Of a DNA stretch of 64,000 bases, positions 1 to 58,200 are shown one piece after another; positions within the stretch are counted from its first letter, which is position 1, and the number at the start of each line of letters is the position of its first letter. A program made the translations under genes and the position numbers. Source of the stretch: Ascidia mentula. Lineage: Eukaryota > Chordata > Ascidiacea > Phlebobranchia > Ascidiidae. The notes below the pieces were generated by a model. That model saw only the letters and a program-made list of their open reading frames with translations. It was not told the DNA's origin and did not search any database. Location: NCBI GenBank assembly GCA_947561715.1, contig OX387202.1:10119001-10183000 (forward strand). Reading direction: 5' to 3'.

Positions 1-280
1 TTGTCGTTACGTTAAATACAGCAAAACAGGATTGCTCAAAACAAACTCAGGTGAATGTAGGCCGGAATATAAAAAGCTAAGTGGAATTATGTCACTGTAG
101 TGATTTTTTTTACAATCAATCTGAAAGTGTAAGATGACAGTAAATATTCGGATTCTTCCAAATATTGACTGGAGGTTTTTGTATTGAGCCGATCTTAATC
201 CTTGTTGTTTTGTCACAACCCTAATTCACACCCACAAATCATCAGAACGACAAAGAATTTTGCTTATTTTCTTCTAACAG
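1..280 (+). other. Intron of CHTF18 (partial)
   Basis: Sequence upstream of the first readable CHTF18 exon. No open frame here resembles the preceding part of the protein, and the segment ends in the acceptor cttctaacag (271-280). I see nothing else in it. Confidence 0.7.
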
Positions 281-3200
281 GGTGTCAACCGGTCTTTGCT
301 GAAGTGGTTAAAACTTTGGGATCACGTCGTTTTTGGAAAACCTGTTCCTCCCAAAAAGAACAAGGACAAAGAAAATCAACCTCAGAAACCACAGCAGCAA
401 AAGTTCAAGGGGAAATTTGGAAAATTTAAACAAAATGAAATGGACGAGGTTGGTGACCTCGAAACTCGTGTTGTATTGTTAGTGGTTTTAATGATTTCGT
501 TAACGTGCAGGGAATGGAATTATGTACAATTGTTATGAATTGGTTTAATTCTTCATTATCATGATTGTTTTCCGAAATTGTTAAACCCCGTAGTTACCAA
601 TTTTCATTGCCCGGTGACACACTTAACCCTAACAATATGTTATAACGATGCGCTCCAAAAATATTGACCGTTAGGGGGAGATAGTTAACACTACGATTTT
701 GTTGTAGTTTTGACCTTTTTCGTCGAATTAGCTGAACGCTCACGTATTTGACGCCAAACGCTCACGCATTATGACGTGGGAATAACATTCTAAACCTGTG
801 TCTATAGGCTTGCGACGCCTCTACAACGTTGAAACGAATCACTAGTGCGTCCCAACTTCTCAAACCTCAGGCGTGCGTTAAATTGTAATAGAATATTTTT
901 TGTTTATATTATCAGCTCTTTTTGAGTTTGTTTACAGACCTATGCACTATAAAGTAAAAATGATACAATATATTCAGGAGTTGGATGAATTCAATCGCCC
1001 CCACTACAAAATATCATTACTCTGTGGAGCTCCCGGTTTAGGGAAAACTACCCTTGCTCATATTATCGCCAGACATGCTGGGTATCACGTGGTCGAAATG
1101 AACGCAAGGTAAAAATTAATTAATATTTTTTATTCTTTCTAAATAAACTGTATAAAACCATCCATTTTAAACCCAAAATGAGTTTACGACAACTAAACGT
1201 AAAAGTAATTTTTTGTAGTAATAGCAGTTCCAATGGTAATACCTTCACCACTTCCATAAATGTCTTCCATACTGGCAAGCTGCAGACAGGGTGTGTCGTT
1301 CTGTTGGGTACCCTATACTGAGTACCAAACAGATTGACGTTGACCGGACAGGTACCACAAAGTGCAGACTAGTGTGCCTGCTAGTGTAAAAGCTAGCACA
1401 GTGCCACTCACCAGCTGCACTGATGAGACCTCACAGGTCGAAACAGTGCGTGTACACACCCTGTCTGCAGCTTGCCAATATTATAATGGCTTTTTTGCAC
1501 ATGTCTTCCATTCTGTTTTGCAAGAAAAAAGTTTAGTGATAAATAAACGTTTTTTCATCTAGCGATGACCGAAGTGCCGAAGCTTTCAAGAAAAAGCTTG
1601 ATGAAACCACACAGATGAAGTCGGTGTTGGGAATCGATCGACGACCGAATTGCCTCATCATCGACGAAATTGACGGCGCTCCACAGGTTATTTTCTCGCA
1701 AAACTCAACTTTATCTACTGCTCACGTTGCGTCGAAAGCGCATAACTCGTTGTAATAAAACTTTGAAGACTTCAAAGTCTAGTTGTTATTCTTATATCCA
1801 CGGGTGTATGAAGTCACTGTAAGATCCATTTGTATAAAAACAAACCTCATAGTGGTACTTTTTTGCTTCTTTCGTCAACAAAAATCGTAATCGAGATTCG
1901 TGCCGACAAATGGTTGGAACTGCTGATTCGTGAGGCGGAAAAAATATTTTTTATTCTTTTTCCAAATTTTTTTTAAATGTTTCCAGGCTGCAATCAACGT
2001 TCTTCTGAAAGCACTCGGAGAAGGAGGAAAGAAACAGGAGATAAAGAAAAAAAAGAAGAAAGAAGTGCGGAGTATTTTGCAACGTCCGATAATCTGCATA
2101 TGCAATGACCTGTAAGTACAGTGTTGGTTTTTTTTTTAACATCCAACAAAAGGTTTACTAAATGTTAATGTAAGTCAACGCTCATGGCTTACTTTTTGTC
2201 ACTTATGTATCACAAACTGATATAACAAACGTCGCTTAACATCTTAGGTACGTTCCTTCGCTTCGCCAGTTACGGCAACAAAGCTATTTACTACATTTTC
2301 CACCGACCACCTCTGACAGATTGGCATCGAGGCTACGGCAGGTACTATATAAGACAGTGGTTCTCAAACTGTGGTACGCGTACCACTAGTGGTACGCGAG
2401 AGCTTTTCAAGTGGTACGCGATTTAGTCTACTCTGTACAATTTGCCGCACTTTGCAGAAGCCAAAACCGCTGCAAATACACGATGTCGGTTTTCTTGATT
2501 GTGCATCTGTGACGCAATAGTATCAACGTGAAATTGTTGCACTGTTGAAGTAATTCTGACATCGTGTATTCAACTGTGCAACAATTTCACGTTGCACAAT
2601 AAAGAAAACCAAGTAACTGGTGATATTGGCTAAATTGTTATTCATTGGTGGTATGTCATAACAGTTATGGTATAGTAATACGGTTGTACGCAGTGTATTA
2701 AAAAACAAATGAGCGGTACGTGATTGGAAAAAGTTTGAGAAACACTGATATAAGACATGGACAATTTTTCTTAAAAAGGTTTGCCGAAACCTGTAGGCTA
2801 CTGTATGCACTGACGATCCGTATAGCGTATAGGTACAACTGATCAAATAACGTAGCATTGCTAATGTTCGCAGTTATGTCGTCATCAGTCATTAGATTGT
2901 GACCTCACAAGTCTTTTGGCTTTATGTGAGAAATCGGGAAACGACATCAGAGCTTGTATCAACACTCTGCAGTTCGTAAGATCAAAAGGAACTAAGAAGT
3001 GAGGATTCGAACTGTATATTGTTTGCTGTAAACTTCAGCATTTTTTCGAAATAAATTTAGTATTAAAGAATTTACTGCATAAATTTTATGAACATATTTG
3101 GTTCGTCCCCCTAAATTCGATGTTTCGAGTTTAGCGTTTTTGTGTCATACGCTGGTTTAAAAGCACCAGCAAATTGTCTACATATGAAAGCATAATCCAA

Positions 3201-6200
3201 TACTGTGGTGGTAACCTCAATATAATGAATTGTTGGACTAAAGGATTTCGAATTTTCTATGTTGTCTAGAAACCATTAATTTTGTGTTCTAGAGTCAGCC
3301 TAGAGATTGTAAAGGATTTGTCCATTGGTCAGAAAGATCAACACAAATCTGTCTTCCACACGTGGAACGAAATCTTTCAACAACCCAAAAACAAAAGGTT
3401 TGCTGGTCTAATGTTGCTTGAACCATCCGTTCAAGGTTTTTAAGATTAGGAACACTTAACGGATTTGCTCATAATTCTGAGAATAAGGAGAGACTGGCTC
3501 ATACTGTTGTTAACATTGTTATATTTCATGCGAAAAAACGTTTTGGCAAGAACTTATGCCCTCATCAGTTTAAATAACGCGGTTGGTGTAGCTCCAGGAT
3601 TATATGGAGCTGACATGACTGACGTCACAGAAAAGGCTCGCGCAAGTGGTGACGTCATGTGGTTATCGGCATGACAATAGTTATGGACCAGTCTCTCCAT
3701 TCTAAGAATTGTGTAAGATTAATATTAATGTGAGCAACGCATATCTAGTGATTATAGTGAACTACAGACAAGGCAACTGTTTCGACCTTTAACGTCTCAT
3801 CAGTACAGCTTAGGTGTAACTTACAACGATCTTTTCAGCTTATTAGCCTATTTGGTCGAAACAGTGCCCTTGTCTGCAGCTCACTATGAAAAAAAAACAT
3901 TGTTGACTCTATTGCTTACACAATACAATCTTTTTTTGACTCTTTGTGTGATTTTTCCATGTACTTGTTATTAACCTTGCATTCTGATATCACATTTCCC
4001 TCTTCAGAAAAATGGATCGCGATTCTCAGGTCGTACAACAAAGCGTAATGTCTGGTCAGAAAGTTTCCAATTTCGCCGCGAGGTTTTACCACATTCTCGA
4101 TGTTGTGATTGCGAACGGCGAATACGAGAAAACACTGCAGGTAAAAAGTTGTGTAAAGTGGAGCCAATAATATGAATTGTGTAAGCTGCAGACAGATGGC
4201 CACTGTTTCGACCTAAAAGGTCTCATCAGTGCAGCTGGTGTGATTTTCAGACGACGTTTCTGACCAAAAAAATACCGTGTGTTGGGCCTGGAACGATCGC
4301 ATTGGCGATTTGAAATGTCCTTGCAAGTGCTGTTTCTATATTTACCACAAGCGCAATATTTGAAAATTGCTGTTTATGTGTGAGTAGTATTACCCACCCA
4401 TACCTATATCCAGTAGTGACATTGCGTCCTTATTTCTAGGATTTGTTCTTACTTTTGTTGTTTATCTGTAACAATGTTTTATGTAGGCATTTGCTAGGAT
4501 ACGTCCTTGTATTTGTGACTTATGCCTTATTTTGTGACTTATTTTGCCTTATCCCGGCTAAAAATGTCACACAAACCAATAGAATTATAATATTGTATTC
4601 ACTAATCACTACAACATTGCAGGAAAGTCGTATCCATTTGCCAGATCGCTGGCGCACATGCTGTCATTTTCACTTACTATAGCGACTCACTGGCACTTAA
4701 AAATTACAACTATTATAAGGCTTGAGCATCTTGGTATTACCTCTTGTTATATTACGTCACAGGGCGTTTTTGAAAACTTCCTGTTGATGAAATTCAAAGA
4801 CCTTGGTATGACGGCCGTGAACAGCGCGTACGAGTGGTTACTCTTATACGATCGAGTTAACCGCGAGGTGGCGTTGCACCAGGAGTGGGTTCTGATGCGT
4901 TATACACCATATATGTTCGTATTATTTCATCTTCTCTTCTCGTGTATTTCCCCTCCGAAGATACAGTTTCCACAAACCGCAAACGAGGTTCGGGATTTTG
5001 CGTGTTTTGTGTCGAATAATGTTAAACTTTTTGATCGTAACATGACCAACTGTGGCTGAATCAAATCTGTTTCGAAGTCCAACTTTCGCGGTGTATAGTC
5101 AGGACAGTTAGTATATTTTTTTTCTAATTAAATGGGTTTACGAATCCTGAAATTATTAAATATAAAAAGATTTTGAAATTTTTTAAATATGTCCCCTTGT
5201 GTTTTTTAAAACACTGGCTGTATCAAACTGATGATGACATAAGTTTTTGTCGAAACGTCTTATTTTAACATGACAGTGTTAATAACAATATGGGCCCGTC
5301 TCTTTATACTCAGAATTATGAGAAAACCCGTGAGTTATGTTCCTGGCTGTATTGTTTTGCGAAAGAAAAAAAATAAAGCCTCTGCATGATTAAACATTCC
5401 CTACATTAAGTTATAATTTTGTTTTTAATATTTTTTTGTTTTTAGAATCGTCAGAAGCAGCAAAAGAGTGAAAATATGTTGACTTGTCTTTATCAAGAAA
5501 TGTTCCCTTCATCAAAGTGTTTCACCTCGCCAACTGTCGCCATACAGGATCTCGTGCCCCACCTACTGGCGATCATGACTCCATCATTGCGGCCGGTAGT
5601 TGGCAACAATAATACTATGTTCATTTGTGAAATAGATATTGGATAAATAAAGTTTAAACCGGTGGTCGACAACCTACGGCCGTAGCAAAGTAATCCGACT
5701 GGCAGTTTCTTTGCAAGTTGCAGTAGTTATTTGGCCCTCCTAGTGCTATAATTTTTATTTTTCAAAATACGGACATAATCTGTACAAAAATAAGCAAGAT
5801 ATTTAGCTAATATCTATTTTATTCCGCTGATGATGGCATAATTTTTTGTTTAAACGTCTGATCTAAAATAAATAACACAAATCAATCTGCAATATGGGCC
5901 AGTCTCTTTGTCCTCAAAATTAAGAGTAAATCTGTTGTTATTGTTCTTTATCTAAAAACCAGTTTCGCAACATTAAACAGTGAAGGACGCGGAATTGTTA
6001 GTGGTAACATATGTTGTCCGTTGAGACCTGCAGGCACAGTTTGTCTTTTCCGTATTTAAACCAAAACCGGAAAATTCCAATTTAGGAGTTTTCAAATTTC
6101 TTGGTTGGAGTAATAGTGAATATTTGTTTCCAGGTAAACATGCAGTTGTACAGCAAGACGGAGAAGAAACAGCTTTCCGACCTCGTTCATTCAATGCTGT

Positions 6201-9200
6201 CTTACAATCTCACCTACAGACAGGAAAAGGATGCTGAAGGACAATATAACTATGTATTGGAGCCGTAAGTTTTTCGCAATTGTTACCACGTGGCTATCAG
6301 GCCGTAGTTGTATTATAAGACTTATTTTTTTTTTATTTAAAAAAAAATAATTAAACACTGTTATACGTGGAGACTCTGCAACTTTGGCCAGTTAATGATG
6401 TAATTTGAACGTTGCTTGTTTTGTTTTTGATGTAAAAATTAAGTATGTGTATGTTGAATCAACATTGTGGATCTAAACGACAACCTGGCAATCACTGCCT
6501 TTTCAGTAATAATAATACAAACAAGCACATGCTATAATTTTGATATTATAGTATTTATTTGTATAAGGCGCATACAAACACTGTGCACATAGTTGACTCT
6601 ATTCTAGTCGGTATATTCTCAGGGTGGCGAGTAAAACCCATGTTTTTTGTATCTAGCTCCGTCGTCAGGTAGCAATTGGCTATAACTATGTTGTGGAAAG
6701 ATTTGCAGCAACAAATATATTTAAGTTGGAAACTGGTATTTTTTCATTGTGTTCAGGGACATGGCTGAAGTTTGCGCATTCAATCACCCGTCGGGTGGCG
6801 CTAGAAAGCAACTTTCTTACGCCTTGAAGCAGATAATATCCAAGGAGGTGGAGAGTGAGCGGATGAGACGGAGTGAAAGTCTCATGACGGGACGTGTTCA
6901 GGTATATTATAGTATAGACTAGTTTGTTGTTGATGCTGCCAGGCATATTACTCAATAATTTCAGGCTCTTCTGGCAATAAAACTTGTTTGGACGACGTTT
7001 CGGTCGTTTTTCAACGGACCTTCATCAGGTCTTTTGCCAGAAGAGCCTTAAATTATTGAGTATCAAATCAAATCATGTTTATTTTGCGAAAAAAGCAACT
7101 ACGCAAAGAACAATATACAAGGAAATGAAATGGCATTGGCACCGATAAAACCATAAAGGTTATCGAGTCAGGCGCCCATGTAAAGGAGTAGTGTATACTA
7201 GATATATAAAAGTGGAACCTAAAACCTAATTCACACAAATTCACAAACAAGATGCTGTGCATTCCATCTGCCACTAAATTTCTGACCCCTAGGCATTTAT
7301 TGACGTAATTTGCAGGACTCATATGTGCAACCTACCCCACCAGCACAACAAGGTGGGAAAACAAAAGTCCCCAGTCATCTACAGCGACTGGAAATTTCAA
7401 TCAACGAAATAAGCATCCCTGCTGAAAAGGTCTGAAAACACGTGTTTTGTTTTTGGAATTGAAAGTTTTCATTCTTTTTAATTTTTCTGTTGCTTTTCAG
7501 CCGGTTGTGGATTTTTTCAGTCGTTTCACCAAAGTCAAAAGGATTGTGGACGGTCAGGAGAGAGGTGAGTGCATAGGCGTAGAGTTTTGCACATCAACGG
7601 GGGTGCGGCGAATAAAAAATACTAACGTCAGAAGGTCGTTTTGCACGCCATAATATAAAAGTTAAAGCGTCGTCTATGTAAGCACGTTCATCACCAACGT
7701 AATTTCGTTTGTTGCGTAATTGTTGTTCGCGAATACGAGACAAACGAAACGCGTGTTAAGCGCTTTGAGTGTTATCAGAAGGAAATGCGCCTTTATTTTT
7801 GCTGCGGTTTAATCCGGCGAACACCGAAAGGATGCGATTTGCGTTTAAATGCGATTGCGTTGTAAATTTAGAGAAGGTCGGGGTTGCGCGGCACCCCTGC
7901 ACCCCCGTACTCTACGCCAGTGGGTGAGTGGGTTGGTTTTCGCCGAAACATCGCCGAACCCATTGAATTTTCATTGCATTGAACTTAAATAACCGGTTAC
8001 GCCCAAATCGTGTAATCTCCAATATCAACACAAACATTACGAATTATTGATTTTTCGAACCAGTTTGAGGTTGATTACGAATATACGTCTGTAGGTCACG
8101 TGATTCATGTATTTGTGCGTCAGTTTTAAAACTCTTAAATTTGATTGACTTGTTTACGAATTGGTTACATTCCTTCAACATGTTATATCTCAATGTGTCA
8201 CTTCTAAGCCTTTGAAATCCGATACTAATGACCAAGCGATAATTGGCAGATCGAGATTTATCGTTCCAGCACCTGGAAGGATCTCCAATTTCGTATCGTA
8301 TCGCTTTACTTGATCACGATTTTTATCGTAACGCTAAAAATGATCACCAGCTGATGTTGCATTGTCGCAGATTCCACACCCAACAATCGACCATTGTTAC
8401 GTCACAAGTGCATGTTGTTAACGTCACAGTGCCTGCGAGCGGGCGGGGCTTTGATGTGCTGTCAAATTTGACATATGCTGTCAGTGGCAGCCCGGCGGTA
8501 TATAATCCCAGTTGTTAAATCACAATCGCCTTAACGCGCCCATCTTTAACACAGGTGCGACCAAATGGAGGCCTCAAGGCATTAAATTCTTCCACCATTT
8601 GCAAGCAGTTGTAATTTTTTACCTTCGCATGTTGTGTCGCCAAGGCTTGGTTTCCAGTGCAAGGGGCGTATATGTGTTTTTCGCGTAAGGTTTTATCGCC
8701 TAATACCTGCCACTACATGATGTGAATTAGATGAACCCGCAATGTCAAATTCCCCGCGGTATGTTCCTACGTACGAAGTGGTTGCTAAATTCTGGTAATC
8801 TTTGGGAAGGGAATGGCTTTCTGACGCTAATTTTCATAGGTGGCCTTTAGGTGATTTGTACAGCTTTAAATACCTCATTTCGGGGTGTTTTTACTGTGTT
8901 TTAGGTTGGCGCAAACTTGCTCGTGATCGAAATTTGTTAATTTTTTTGAGTTCTTTCGTTAATTAAAAAATCACAAAATTTTAATTTTCGAAAATTTAAA
9001 TTTACATATTTTGTTATTTAAGTTGCTTAAATTCCGTAAATTCCAAGAACTACAAAAGGCAATTAATTTTTAATTTTTTTTTAATTTTTCTAACGAGAAC
9101 TTAACATTTACCATAAATATAAAATTTCCAGCGCATTTTGAAAGCGAAAAAAATACCTCAATGCATTACCTCATCACGTGGGAGGTCAGGTGACCCGAAT

Positions 9201-52245: not shown

Positions 52246-55200
52246 TGGCCGAAGTATCAGATCCAAGGTAATCTTAGGTAGTAGTATAAATTATATTGCC
52301 AAAAAAACGCATAGCATAGTTTTTTTCTGTTGCATTATTATTGTCTGCACAGATTATGATAGCGAATGTCTGAGTATTCCTTACGTTTCTTAGTGCTAGA
52401 TAATGGTCGCATGCTGGTATCAGGGTCATTGGGAAATTAGCATAGCTTTAAATTCCCCCCCCAAAAAAACGCCAATCTGGCAACAAATATAGTGAGATTT
52501 TAAGCAAGGTTAAATTTGTTTTGCGAAAAATAACCAGTTTGGGAATTCGTAAACTCATGTTAAGCCAGTGTTGCCATGTACATTGCCACTATGTAAATGG
52601 CATTTAGCCTACCTTAAACTCAATACCTTTCACAAAATACTGCAATGCAAAGAAAATCATTGTGAATACACAAAACCACTTTTGGTGCAGATGGGACTTC
52701 CTGCAGAGCAAAACGTTGAAGACCCTCAATCTAAAAATAGACAAATGGAACAAAATGATCCAACAAGAAGAGTTGAAAATCCTTATTCAGGAATTTCTAG
52801 ACAAATCTGACGTCATTGGAATGGTGATATATGCGTCACCTAGTGGTCAATTAACCCCTAGCTACGAATTTCCGAATACGATCAAACAAAAAGGCATGTA
52901 CACATATGCTCTTTACTGTAGTGAAACATATACCATTTAAAGCTGTAGACTTTGGGGTAATTTTTGTGCTGAGTCAAAAGTAGTGTTTAAATGAGAAACA
53001 AAAGTATTGTGAAAACAAGTCACTGGTTTTCAAACGATCACTTCATGCGATATTTTGCTGTAGGCACGTATTTCGTGAAGAGGGAAAAGGTAGCGGTAAC
53101 AAAAGATACCATAAGAACGAAAGTAGTCGTTGGAGACGTCTCACAAATTCCTCTCCAACATCTCTCTCCCATGATTGACGAGGTAAAACTGCAATTTCCT
53201 TTGCGGAGTGGTGAACAGCCAAAGCAATAATGCCTTGCTATAATATGCCCCTTTTACCTTTGTTTTTTTGCCAATATTTTCCAAAAAAAGTGTTGAGTGT
53301 CTTCTAATATGAAAACTAACCTTTGTTACAAGGTATAAACCTGCAAAATTATGTAACTTGTTTCTGTACACGTATTTTTGTTTTGTCTGGGCACCGACCA
53401 CGATTGTCAGCGTCAAGTTAAACTTCACATTTTTAAATCATGTGACATTCGTTTCATTGATCGAAGAAATTCGCATTCGTTTACGACGTGATGCTTAAAA
53501 TTACCTGATTATCATTACAGATGCTTTCACATCTTCTTTCTAATGACGACAATCACCAACGTTGGCCACTTGTCGTATCTGATGACGTAATACGTCATGT
53601 CCACAAACTCAAGAGCAACGTGTACGTGGTGGCCGGTCACGTGAAGGGAAAAACCCTATTACCTTTGCCGGTTGGCTCGGAGAAATTGGAAAGCGAGAAA
53701 TCTAACGAACAAAGGTAGCTGAAACCTGTAATGATAGGACTTTCGCTGCTTGTTTGTCGCGAAAAGGTACACAACTACACAAAAAAGCAAAGGTTTTTTG
53801 CTTTTCTAAATAAATATAAAATGTTTGAAACCAAGTGTTTCTGATTACCATCAGTCGGTTTATTTTTAAAATACGATAAATCGATTTCGCCTACAAAACA
53901 TCATCAGTTTCTACAAATAAAATGCAATAAAGTACTCGAAGCTACCTGTACACAAAATACGCAAGCAAACACAGAAATAAATATAAAATCATTTCTTATT
54001 CGGGCCTCTGCGTATCATTTAGGGCTTTTATGGCGAATTGTTTTCAAATTCAAGCAAAACTAAATAAGCAAAACAGTATCAAAGCAATCCGCTTGAGGCG
54101 ACAATGAGCCGAAACTCCAATCAATACCGGTTTTTTCCCTATTTACCTAACCTCTGTCCTCTGCAGAGCTGTGTTGCACGCAATCGAGACAGTGGTTATA
54201 GAATGGAGTCACCAAGTTCGCGATGTGCTGAAGCAAGATTCGGCGCAGGCGTTACTTGAAGGTCACAATCCCGGGCCAATAGTGGAAATCGCTTTCTGGA
54301 ATGCGAAGTGTAACAACTTGGAATGCATTTACACGCAGGTGCGTAGCAAGTAGAATAAGTCGTTGATCGTAAAGTAAGTTGGCGAATTAAAAATCTTACC
54401 AGTTCTACCTGCTACAGCTACAAAAAAAAATTTTTGATTAAATTTTGGGTGATATCTTTCATGACAAATAACACATGTGAAAAAGGTGGCAGTTTTTGTT
54501 GCTAAAAAAAAACACATGTGGTTTTATTGTGAACAATCATATCTGCCGAAAATTGTTTAAATACAGCAATAAAATCCGAGAGTATTTGTAAACAATACAT
54601 TATTGTATACAATCTTGATCTTCGTCTGTACATTTGATAGGCAAGGTCGTCTAGAGTCAAGCTGCACTGATCAGATCTAATGTGTCGTAACGGGGGCCCT
54701 GTCTGTAACTCATTTAAAATATTTATTCTTTTCTTTGTGTAGCTTCAAAGACCGAAGGTTAAAAAGATGGCCAAAATTTTGGAATTGTCCCACAGCAGTT
54801 ATTACCCTGCACTGCGAGACATCTTTAACAACACCAAAGCAGGTATATACTATGTGATGTGATATCCAGGTTTATCATCTTGTGTTACTGAGCTTTATTT
54901 CAAAATAGCACTACGTGAAGCAAGAGACATCCAGGTCCATTTGAAGCCTTTGCAGTCATTTCTAGATGATCTTGAACAAGTTGATTTTTCAGAGGTAAGA
55001 CTGTATTTAAGAAATATTTGCTTCTAGAACAAATGGTATAATTCCTAATTGAATAGAATATACTGTATATACTGAGTTTGTTATTTAGTTCAGGGTTGTG
55101 TTTGATTACTGTTTTGAGTACCTCGTCAAAACACGTTGGTATTTATTATTTTTGGTGACCGTATAGCTAATTGCACAAACCATATTTATTGCTCTTTTCG

Positions 55201-58200
55201 TTGCCACGAATAAGAGAATCTGTGCTTTCAGTATGAACAACAAACCCATACTAAACATAAATTCAGTCTTATCAAATGTTTTGGTTCTATTCCCAATGCT
55301 ATTGGTATGAATTTATTTTTATTCATATGGGGTTTATTTCTTTACGATGAGACCTCATAGGTCGAAATAGTGGCCATCTGTATGAAGCTTACACAATTTA
55401 TGATTTATGTTGAATACTAAAAAGCAACTTTGTCCCTAAGAACCTGCGCTGATATAAATACTTATGGTTAATTCTTTTCAGGCCATCCCAAAACTCAACC
55501 CATTGATGCACATTATATGCCTGATTTGGTCTCTATCCAAGCATTACAACACACCTATAAGAATCATAGTCCTTCTCAGAGAGATGTGCAACTTCCTTAT
55601 TGAAGTAGTAAGTATTAGTTTTTAACTATTCAGGATAACTTTCTCTTTGATAAACATGTAGGTCTACTATTAAAGTAGGATCATCAATTTAAGTATTTGA
55701 ATTTATTTTTTTACTGAGTTTGGATATGTGACCAACTGTTACAATACATTTGTATTATTCTGTGTTACATACCGGGGTGGACTAGGTTCATAACCATTTG
55801 GGTTGCAAATATAAAGTTAAGCTACTGCATTAACTTAAACAACTGCCAATAATGGGAATCTGGCAAACCAACAAATATGCTTCTAACCAATGAAAAAAAT
55901 TATGCAGAAACCTTGAAATCTATTTGAAAAATGATGATTTGTGAATATTTTAATGTGACATTCGGCCCGCAAGCCAGCATTTGGCCATATACTTTCAAAA
56001 TACTTGTTTTTTATCACTAGCCCATTCTTTACTGTTGTTGTTTTTCAGACGTTTTTTAAAATCATTTTATTGTGTTTACTGTAACGAACTGAAGATGCCC
56101 ATGGGGCGAAATATATATTCCTGATAAAAAGCCAGGCTGATCCTGTAGTAAAAAGCTACTGCTTTTTTAGAGTTAAAAATACTTATTTATTATTTAGTCA
56201 TGCAACTATCTCTCTCCTGAAGATCTACTGAAGGGTGAATTGGATGAAGTCATAGAGAGGGTGCAAAATGCCATTAAAGTCCTTCATGCCTTCAAAGACA
56301 GCTTTCACTACCACAAGTCAAAGATCTCCACCTACTTTGAGGCAATTTACCCTCAAAAAACTGAATATAAAATGTTAAACTAGTGAGAATTTTTTTTTAT
56401 CAGGACAAATCCAAAGTGAAGCATTGGAGTTTTGCTCCAGACATGATATTTTCAAGACTTGATTCTTTTATTGATCGCCTCAACATTGTCATGGTAAGCA
56501 TGTTTCAATACATGAACGACATTTTTATACTATATATTCTAATATTTTCTGGCAGTATTTTTCACAACTGTTGGTGATTTAAGTCAGGGGTTCCCAATCT
56601 GTTTTGACCACAACATTTTTTAACTGGTTATATTCTGTGACCCCATTAGGTTTGAAAGTAATATTTGGTGCAATACTTAGTTGTAATGAAACAATTGAAA
56701 ATCCATCAGGAGGGTCATACTTTGTAAAACAGGACTCTACATGTTATACTTTACGTAACTCCTTACAATCCATAAAAATCAACAGGCGACCCTATGTACG
56801 TCCATGACACTACGTTTGGCAAGCCAAGTACTTTTTTTATAAAATTGACCTAAATTGCCACAGGTCAGTTACAAAATCAGTAGATATCCATTAAAAAACG
56901 ATTTCTTATAAATCAAGCACATTGGTTTGCTCTTTTTTTGTTCAATTTCCATATCAGGAATTTTTCCTGCGGAGTCAAGAGTTTATGAAGTTGGAAAAGA
57001 TTGAGTTTGGTGGAGTGAAGGGCAGAGTGCTTAGCCAACTTGTTCTCAACATATTCGAGGCATTCCAGGAAATTTACAAGGTGTTTGGTGAAAGAACATA
57101 CAACCCTCTTGACCCTGAAGATGATGTAAGTACGGCGTAACCCTTACAACACGTATTGTCGGATCCCTAAACAGCGTTTCTTAAAGTGGGTACTTTGAGC
57201 AATTACGGCGCACTGCTTTTGATATTTTTTACTTTAAACTACATGGAGCAAAGTAACGTAACGTTTCGTAGTTGCGACACCCGATAAAAAGGGTTATCGC
57301 CGAGTCGTGACGCCCTTAAAAATGTTTCAAAATTTGGGACTTAAAATCTGTCAAGGTGACTGATTGTCTGCTATTGTGCTTTGACGGATATAGTAACTGT
57401 TGTGTAATTGTATCATTATGTGTCCCAAAGTTGACCTTACAAAACGGCGCTTAAGACTCGCCGTGCAATCAGCGTGTCTGGCAATGCGACTCACGCCTGT
57501 GGATGTACTGCGCACCTCAGTGGCTAATAATTGCGTTCCTGGCGTTATTTGCGTGTTGGCTTTGCCTATAAAACCTGCGCACCGTTTTGTATCAATACAC
57601 TTGAATTATTTGTGACTGAAGAATACAGACGATCGACTGGCCAAGGTATTTTTGACGAATCAATCTTCAACGGTGCACAAGATGCTTTTCAATTTGGCTG
57701 CACAGGAATCGCCACCAAGAGACATCAATGAGCTCACGTTAGAAGAAATCGTCCAACATATGAAGTTTCAGTTTGACCCCAAACGTTTCATAGTCCGCGA
57801 AAGGTTCAAGTTTTGGACCGACATGAAGCGCAAGCCGGCAGAAACAATTCAAGAGCTCGCTGTTCGCATTCGACAAAGCGCAGCAACTTGCGACTTTGCA
57901 TCCATCATAGATCCATTGGATGAAGCTTTACGCACTCGTTTTATCTGTTCAATTGAAAACGAGGCGGTTTTAAAAGCTCTGTTTAGGACAAAGGATGACG
58001 AATTGAGTTTTGCTCGTGCGATTGACATTGCGGTTGAAACCGAAGATGCTGCCAAAGTGGCTAAAGAAACTGTTTACGGGATGCAGCCATCGACTTCGGT
58101 GTTCAAGGTACGTGCTACAGCTAAGCCGTGGGAGAAACGTAAAGTGGATTCGAGGACGGTGCAATTACCTGAAGGGAGGAAATGTTATCGATGTGGCAAG

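Follow-up and report, generated by a model that had tools for sequence, protein, structure and literature searches.

The DNA analysed here is a stretch of 64,000 nucleotides from the ascidian Ascidia mentula (assembly GCA_947561715.1, contig OX387202.1, positions 10,119,001 to 10,183,000, forward strand), called the window throughout, and the subject of this report is the hammerhead ribozyme repeats in the CHTF18 introns of this stretch, together with the Penelope-like elements (PLEs) of the same genome. Region 1-9000 of the window carries exons of CHTF18. A 169-aa exon-joined stretch was compared with PDB chains, which gave a CTF18 homolog as the best match (E=2e-57) and a second CTF18 at E=1.2e-26. 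The ribozyme-type copies at 1-7.1 kb lie between these exons (placed by exon frames, boundaries by eye), and both strands are used (1413-1472 on the plus strand, 3810-3760 and 4236-4184 on the minus strand). An original prediction, made from the letters alone, had placed in these introns non-autonomous, ribozyme-bearing repeats that are present on both strands, either singly or as inverted units, and all of this was borne out. Taken as a whole, its observation was partly confirmed, with corrections, and its interpretation was partly supported. One correction is that only three of the five hammerheads described as intact are canonical type I hammerheads, while those at 5228 and 6998 are minimal motifs without a closed helix III. 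Another is that at least four families are present instead of two, namely, family A at 1413, family B at 3780 and 4206, family C at 3449-3713, 5224-5342 and 5827, and family D at 6949-7062.

The canonical copies belong to families A and B, whose features in the window are the following:

1260-1270, unstranded: left target-site duplication ATGTCTTCCAT (11 bp) of the family A insertion, identical to 1501-1511
1271-1500, plus strand: family A retrozyme insertion of 230 bp, head-to-head, with A-unit blocks at 1269-1296, 1295-1331 (minus) and 1323-1521 (plus); the left arm is inverted and has no tail (outer end CTTGCCAGT, read on the minus strand), and the tail, at about 1479-1500, is on the right arm
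1413-1472, plus strand: canonical type I hammerhead of family A with an intact core, whose minimum-energy fold is the hammerhead; read from the sequence, helix I 1413-1419/1466-1472, CTGATGA 1420-1426, helix II 1427-1439, GAAA 1440-1443, and GTC with predicted cleavage between 1465 and 1466
1501-1511, unstranded: right target-site duplication ATGTCTTCCAT, identical to 1260-1270
3754-3887, minus strand: family B-like retrozyme with head-to-head arms 3754-3787/3854-3887 (inverted arms, comparison with B); no target-site duplication found
3760-3810, minus strand: canonical hammerhead with an intact core and a weak helix I (three G-U pairs), predicted cleavage 3767/3766; helices read from the sequence
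4155-4268, minus strand: family B retrozyme, 5'-truncated, with a tailed 3' end, 91.5% to the B unit; no target-site duplication found
4184-4236, minus strand: canonical hammerhead of this family B copy, predicted cleavage 4191/4190 (core pattern, 28-mer, sub-threshold Rfam match)
54633-54713, plus strand: decayed family B fragment (72%)
55346-55395, plus strand: decayed family B fragment (88%)

In each canonical copy, three helices (I, II and III) surround the core, and GTC stands at the type I cleavage position (read from the sequence; the 1413 copy was compared with the RAGATH-1 alignment). Helix I is AGCTGCA/TGCAGCT, or AGCTGTA/TGTAGTT in the second (3803) copy, and all copies share a helix II of GACC/GGTC, the GAAA and a closed helix III. 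The pattern CTGATGA-N4-30-GAAA has eight matches in the 64-kb window, two of which overlap at 6998-7028, versus 1.32 expected, and a family-specific 28-mer with at most three mismatches occurs three times (1420 plus, 3803 minus, 4229 minus) versus 0.00 expected. For the core together with helix II and the beginning of helix III, the genome-wide copy count that had been proposed as a check gave 1587 exact occurrences in 195.8 Mb and none in the reversed control. In 18 copies chosen from 54 distinct ones, 97.2% of the helix cells are paired, versus 22-35% with slid partners.

A search with the 1413 copy returned 107 matches, several of them in tandem (40 of 1645 candidates were scored). The units of the canonical copies are about 280-290 nt long, with a GC content of 48% in A and 47% in B, and occur in tandem, solo and head-to-head forms. 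Locus L006 holds a contiguous A unit of 280 nt from cleavage site to cleavage site, with the neighboring core 291 nt away, and locus L094 holds six same-strand B cores with units of 285, 286, 285, 285, and 285 nt. Both families thus form tandem units elsewhere in the genome, which is characteristic of retrozymes, and the earlier statement that no tandem array is nearby was incomplete. The ribozyme (35 nt at 91%) is common to A and B, as is a stretch of 44 columns at 77%, and the remainder is alignable with gaps; therefore, the two families look like distant relatives. Size, GC content, tandem copies, and target duplications fit the animal non-LTR (long terminal repeat) retrozymes as characterized in the available text of PMC7229834, for which a canonical type I hammerhead, a tandem unit of 170-400 nt, a GC content below 50%, and a target duplication of more than 4 bp were all found here. 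Neither A nor B contains an open reading frame (ORF) for reverse transcriptase (RT) and GIY-YIG endonuclease, as a PLE would; units of 280-286 nt leave no room for one, so A and B are not PLEs themselves. At L094 (G000:C1:3332240-3334450) the six tandem B cores and one inverted copy lie within a single 12-bp target duplication, a layout that would be compatible with an RT going repeatedly round a circle.

The copies tend to end at one of two sites past the ribozyme. One of these follows closely on helix I (family A: CTTACCAA; family B: CTTATACACAA), the other lies about 30 nt farther on, and the additional stretch is called the tail. The 1413 copy is a clean case, with the element 1271-1500 between its 11-bp duplications, tail-less on the left and tailed on the right. 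Genome-wide, 24 head-to-head insertions were scored, 19 of retrozymes and five of PLE family C, which is described below. An end was called tailed at a tail score of at least 0.70, and no end called tail-less scored above 0.52 (L096). The 24 exclude near-identical or same-place loci (L023, L027, L028, L093, L097), loci with copies judged not to be one insertion (L012, L048), the window locus (L001, L031, L061 and the window itself, where the left arm of the 1413 copy is coreless and was handled by hand), a locus with differing family labels (L014), and loci with one core missed by the search expression (L084, L085); head-to-head insertions with one core, e.g. L007, L009 and L085, were counted, if anywhere, among the solo copies. 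In all 24 insertions both outer ends are the 3' region of the element, and 23 have exactly one tailed (about 30 nt) and one tail-less end. A flanking repeat of at least 10 bp was present in 21/24 pairs versus 2/552 mismatched flank pairs, with a mode of 12 bp and exactly 12 bp in 12 insertions. For the retrozymes alone, one tail was found in 18/19 and the flanking repeat in 16/19; for PLE family C both values are 5/5. A and B therefore both show the footprint of PLE type, i.e., head-to-head copies, one tail, and a short duplication. A cruder first pass over 29 pairs, duplicates included, gave repeats of at least 9 bp in 20/29 versus 14/812. Because 16 of the 24 insertions had been fetched with tail-reaching queries, which favor at least one tailed end, eight pairs picked by the ribozyme core alone, with duplicates removed, are the fair subset; one tail was present in 8/8 and a repeat of at least 10 bp in 7/8. 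Repeats of 10 bp or more also flank 25 of the 52 solo copies (61/2652 in mismatched pairs).

Such insertions may look like miniature inverted-repeat transposable elements (MITEs), and the original prediction had called them MITE-shaped and of unclear mobilisation. They would then be remnants of a DNA transposon, with half a hammerhead present by chance in each terminal inverted repeat. The inverted ends and target duplications agree with this, for example the 28-nt arms 1269-1296/1454-1481, but the 24 scored insertions vary in length between 196 and 1825 bp, the same 3' ends recur in solo and tandem copies of these families, and the outer ends differ by the tail of about 30 nt in 23/24. A MITE origin is thus very improbable, and the inverted form is a head-to-head insertion with its outer ends at two start sites, as in PLEs. 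The opposed arrangement could also have arisen by chance adjacency of two copies, through separate insertions or segmental inversions. With 1587 exact cores and segmental duplicates such as L092/L093, L096/L097 and L026/L027 the material for this exists; however, opposed core pairs within 1.5 kb are divergent in 10/10 cases among the places listed (C1 0.3-10.4 Mb), and a single repeat flanks the whole pair far more often than in the mismatched controls (21/24 versus 2/552), so that chance adjacency has a next to negligible probability.

The PLEs of the genome are represented in the window by families C and, apparently, D:

3441-3448, unstranded: TAAGATTA (8 bp), left copy, probably a target-site duplication made by the insertion of a PLE 3' end; identified as the longest sequence common to two 76-base stretches, possibly due to chance
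3449-3713, minus strand: family C PLE 3' end, 5'-truncated, tailed at 3449, with a short inverted arm ending at 3713; 78.5% to C (3670-3445), arms 3487-3503/3682-3698
3714-3721, unstranded: right copy of TAAGATTA, matching 3441-3448
5214-5223, unstranded: left target-site duplication CTGGCTGTAT (10 bp) of a PLE 3'-end insertion, matching 5343-5352
5224-5342, plus strand: family C PLE 3' end, solo and tailed, with a minimal hammerhead motif at 5228-5255; 95% to C (5223-5344)
5343-5352, unstranded: right target-site duplication CTGGCTGTAT, matching 5214-5223
5827-5935, plus strand: decayed family C PLE 3' end (76%)
6949-7062, minus strand: family D head-to-head arms with a minimal motif at 7028-6998 (CTGATGA...GAAACGTC), from the core pattern and the inverted arms

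The motifs at 5228 and 6998 are minimal and of PLE type, since GAAACGTC leaves no closed helix III, and the minimal form has been tied to PLEs (PMC7761336, available passages). The 3' end of family C holds this minimal hammerhead, CTGATGA...GAAACGTC, and the family itself represents the 3' terminus of a PLE whose predicted RT and endonuclease are encoded elsewhere in the genome. Open pieces of L082, taken separately and unmended, matched RVT_1 (E=5e-13) and GIY-YIG (E=5e-4, under the curated cut-off). The C-terminal part of L069 has 150 scored genome matches with open frames of up to 806 aa, and because these matches span 34-100% identity, several PLE families are present. A Pfam search with two L069 pieces gave nothing relevant, and a PDB search with an L069 piece gave nothing credible. 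The minimal-motif pattern occurs 940 times genome-wide versus three times in the reversed control (all families together), and its opposed pairs within 1.5 kb are divergent in 7/7 cases among the places listed. A tblastn comparison of PLE RT and endonuclease pieces with the window had no match, and to this extent the earlier statement that no RT is nearby was right; it overlooked that three copies of family C, the 3' end of an RT-encoding element, adjoin the retrozymes in the same introns. A similarity to L102, judged by eye and left unscored, suggests that family D is a further PLE end. At G000:C52:19024501-19110100 a family D insertion recurs every 5-12 kb or so in a single orientation, and this series is apparently carried inside a tandemly duplicated stretch. 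The idea that this neighborhood is a PLE array was rejected, as the ORFs of the 5.8-kb L091 have no RT-like frame (by eye). Another PLE family is found at L103 (G000:C71:16137390-16137900), 49% identical to C in the matched C-terminal part; downstream of this PLE, CTGATGATG...TCGAAACGTTTAC again forms a minimal hammerhead-like motif.

The shared footprint bears on a further possibility, namely, that the retrozymes are mobilised by long interspersed nuclear elements (LINEs) and inverted through twin priming of the L1 type. LINE insertions, too, can be 5'-truncated and flanked by target duplications of about 12 bp. Twin priming, however, leaves the inverted segment with an outer end at an arbitrary position inside the element, whereas both outer ends lie at the 3' start sites of the element here. 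In addition, no consistent poly(A) is present at the listed ends (by eye), and the footprint is shared by all five scored insertions of PLE family C from this genome. LINEs have been named as candidates for animal retrozymes in the accessible part of PMC7229834, but for the families analysed here we regard mobilisation by LINEs as quite improbable.

The retrozymes carry the footprint that has been published for PLEs, and PLE machinery is therefore the probable mobiliser. We conclude that the canonical hammerheads very probably belong to two families of animal non-LTR retrozymes, A and B, for which co-resident PLEs supply the mobilising machinery in trans. The unit anatomy, the tandem and head-to-head copies, the two preferred 3' sites, the target duplications, and the co-resident PLE with the same footprint are observed, and the enzymatic steps, i.e., cleavage, circularisation, and dependence on PLEs, are inferred from sequence. 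The PLE protein would bind the retrozyme RNA, either circular or as an uncut multimer, and would cut the target with a stagger of about 12 bp. Reverse transcription would then be primed by each DNA 3' end at either of two sites that lie shortly past the ribozyme and are separated by about 30 nt, with one DNA end starting at the far (tail) site and the other at the near site, and the two complementary DNAs would be joined head to head at variable places. Far extension of only one end would yield a solo, 5'-truncated copy, and a template traversed round and round would yield tandem units. Although both start sites are located past the cleavage site, the copies cross back into the ribozyme, so the template must have been ligated (circular) or uncut; this applies to the sampled copies, which were found by their ribozyme. 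Several of these steps have a counterpart in an Anolis PLE, for which the available sections of PMC11167929 describe that, with purified protein, cleavage and extension take place on both target strands and that reverse transcription starts at two internal sites, the tail being the sequence between them. Because no start-site difference between top and bottom strand was observed for the Anolis element in vitro, that work leaves the rule of one end of each kind unexplained. Tentatively, one PLE complex might handle both target ends with one start site each, which would give one tail per two-sided insertion. Predicted circular folds, computed for one unit each and without a control, show, for A as well as for B, the two start sites close to the feet of a single hairpin, and this hairpin might possibly be a loading signal for circular ribozyme RNAs.

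The ribozyme itself would serve to produce unit-length RNA from multimeric transcripts. Alternatively, it could be a fossil without a catalytic role in mobility, so that only the 3' start region matters. According to the accessible text of PMC11167929, a purified PLE inserted ribozyme mutants like the original RNA, which is in agreement with the fossil view. The fold energies of the window copies are likewise unremarkable (z of -1.08, -0.11, and -1.45, the second (3803) stretch being too short for the full helix I), and the minimum-energy fold is the three-helix hammerhead for the 1413 copy but a competing hairpin for the 4206 copy of family B. Against a fossil stand the 1587 intact cores and the fact that A and B resemble each other most closely in the core (35 nt at 91%). 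The core is also slightly better conserved within the families (0.985 versus 0.952 in A, 0.961 versus 0.928 in B), in a comparison that is biased by the choice of loci by similarity. On balance a fossil ribozyme seems unlikely.

Several results weigh against mobilisation of ribozyme-bearing retrozymes by PLEs. At the gathering threshold Rfam had no match in the window. The best sub-threshold scores were 24.3, 22.3, and 21.2 bits for Hammerhead_3 (cut-off 48.5) and 23.8 bits for RAGATH-1 (cut-off 56.3); the original prediction had named scores below threshold as grounds for its refutation, and taken literally this is what was obtained. A whole-genome search with RF00163 also had no match, but the same search found none in 14 control genomes and hence shows nothing. 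The ribozyme family is held to be real despite the low Rfam scores because of the 1587 exact cores versus none in the reversed control. Covariation does not contribute evidence, since no pair was changed on both sides among the 18 of 54 distinct copies and shuffles scored as well. Concerning the footprint, no clear target duplication was found at the 3754 and 4155 copies, 27 of the 52 solo copies are without a 10-bp repeat, and the repeats of L016 (7 bp) and L095 (9 bp) are shorter than 10 bp. The exception to the rule of one tail is L020, which has tails at both ends and a repeat of only 6 bp. Furthermore, the distance from ribozyme to start site is shorter in A and B than in C, no sequence similarity between the start regions of retrozymes and PLEs was shown, and the Anolis experiments (PMC11167929, as far as available), in which no strand difference in start site was observed, do not account for one start site per end. 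A PLE with a tail resembling those of A or B was not found among the few 3' ends read, which for other families were those of L102 and L103 only. At G000:C1:25.43-25.51 Mb, the loci L020, L026, and L027 have the same retrozyme right end in several segmental copies with differing left sides. Since this right end recurs, a rearrangement may have taken place at L020, and L020 is not fully independent of L026.

Animal retrozymes and the proposal of their mobilisation by PLEs are already known, so that the value of the present analysis lies in the mechanism. The available text on animal non-LTR retrozymes (Cervera and de la Pena 2020, PMC7229834) agrees with A and B in the type I hammerhead, the 170-400-nt unit, the tandems, the GC content below 50%, duplications of more than 4 bp, many copies, and co-resident PLEs; in contrast, it does not describe head-to-head insertions with one tail and a duplication of about 12 bp. 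PLEs with GIY-YIG, as presented in the accessible parts of PMC3846280 and PMC11167929, share the head-to-head and tandem arrangements, a tail that is optional on one inverted end, a short duplication, and a hammerhead near the start sites, but A and B are too short for an RT, and their helix III is closed, whereas the PLE hammerhead is minimal. For bdelloid PLEs the same excerpts of PMC3846280 report inverted pseudo-LTRs, with head-to-head as the commonest inverted arrangement and a 31-bp tail that is optional on one pseudo-LTR, and target-site duplications of 8-10 bp in published examples. The LTR retrozymes of plants (PMC4918200, PMC7761336, PMC7229834, in part) are likewise ribozyme-flanked non-coding units moved in trans, but have features of their own, i.e., LTRs, a primer binding site, a polypurine tract, 4-bp duplications, and type III hammerheads (PMC7761336, PMC7229834). 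In the available passages of PMC7229834, PMC7761336, and PMC11722881, the mobilisation of retrozymes by PLEs was proposed from co-occurrence, shared hammerheads, and tandem structure. No report of a PLE footprint in retrozymes was found in the literature searched, as far as its text was available, and an earlier description may exist.

A further CHTF18 intron contains an element at 2355-2747 of the window with inverted ends CAGTGGTTCTCAAACT/AGTTTGAGAAACACTG around GTGGTACGCG repeats, which we take to be similar to a MITE of the hAT type.

How animal retrozymes move has been an open question since their first description. The footprint that A and B share with a PLE of the same genome can be quantified, and this makes the PLE proposal testable in any genome. 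It also explains the MITE-like look of such repeats. With 1587 exact cores, A. mentula offers a large natural set of insertion products for the study of priming and DNA joining by PLEs.

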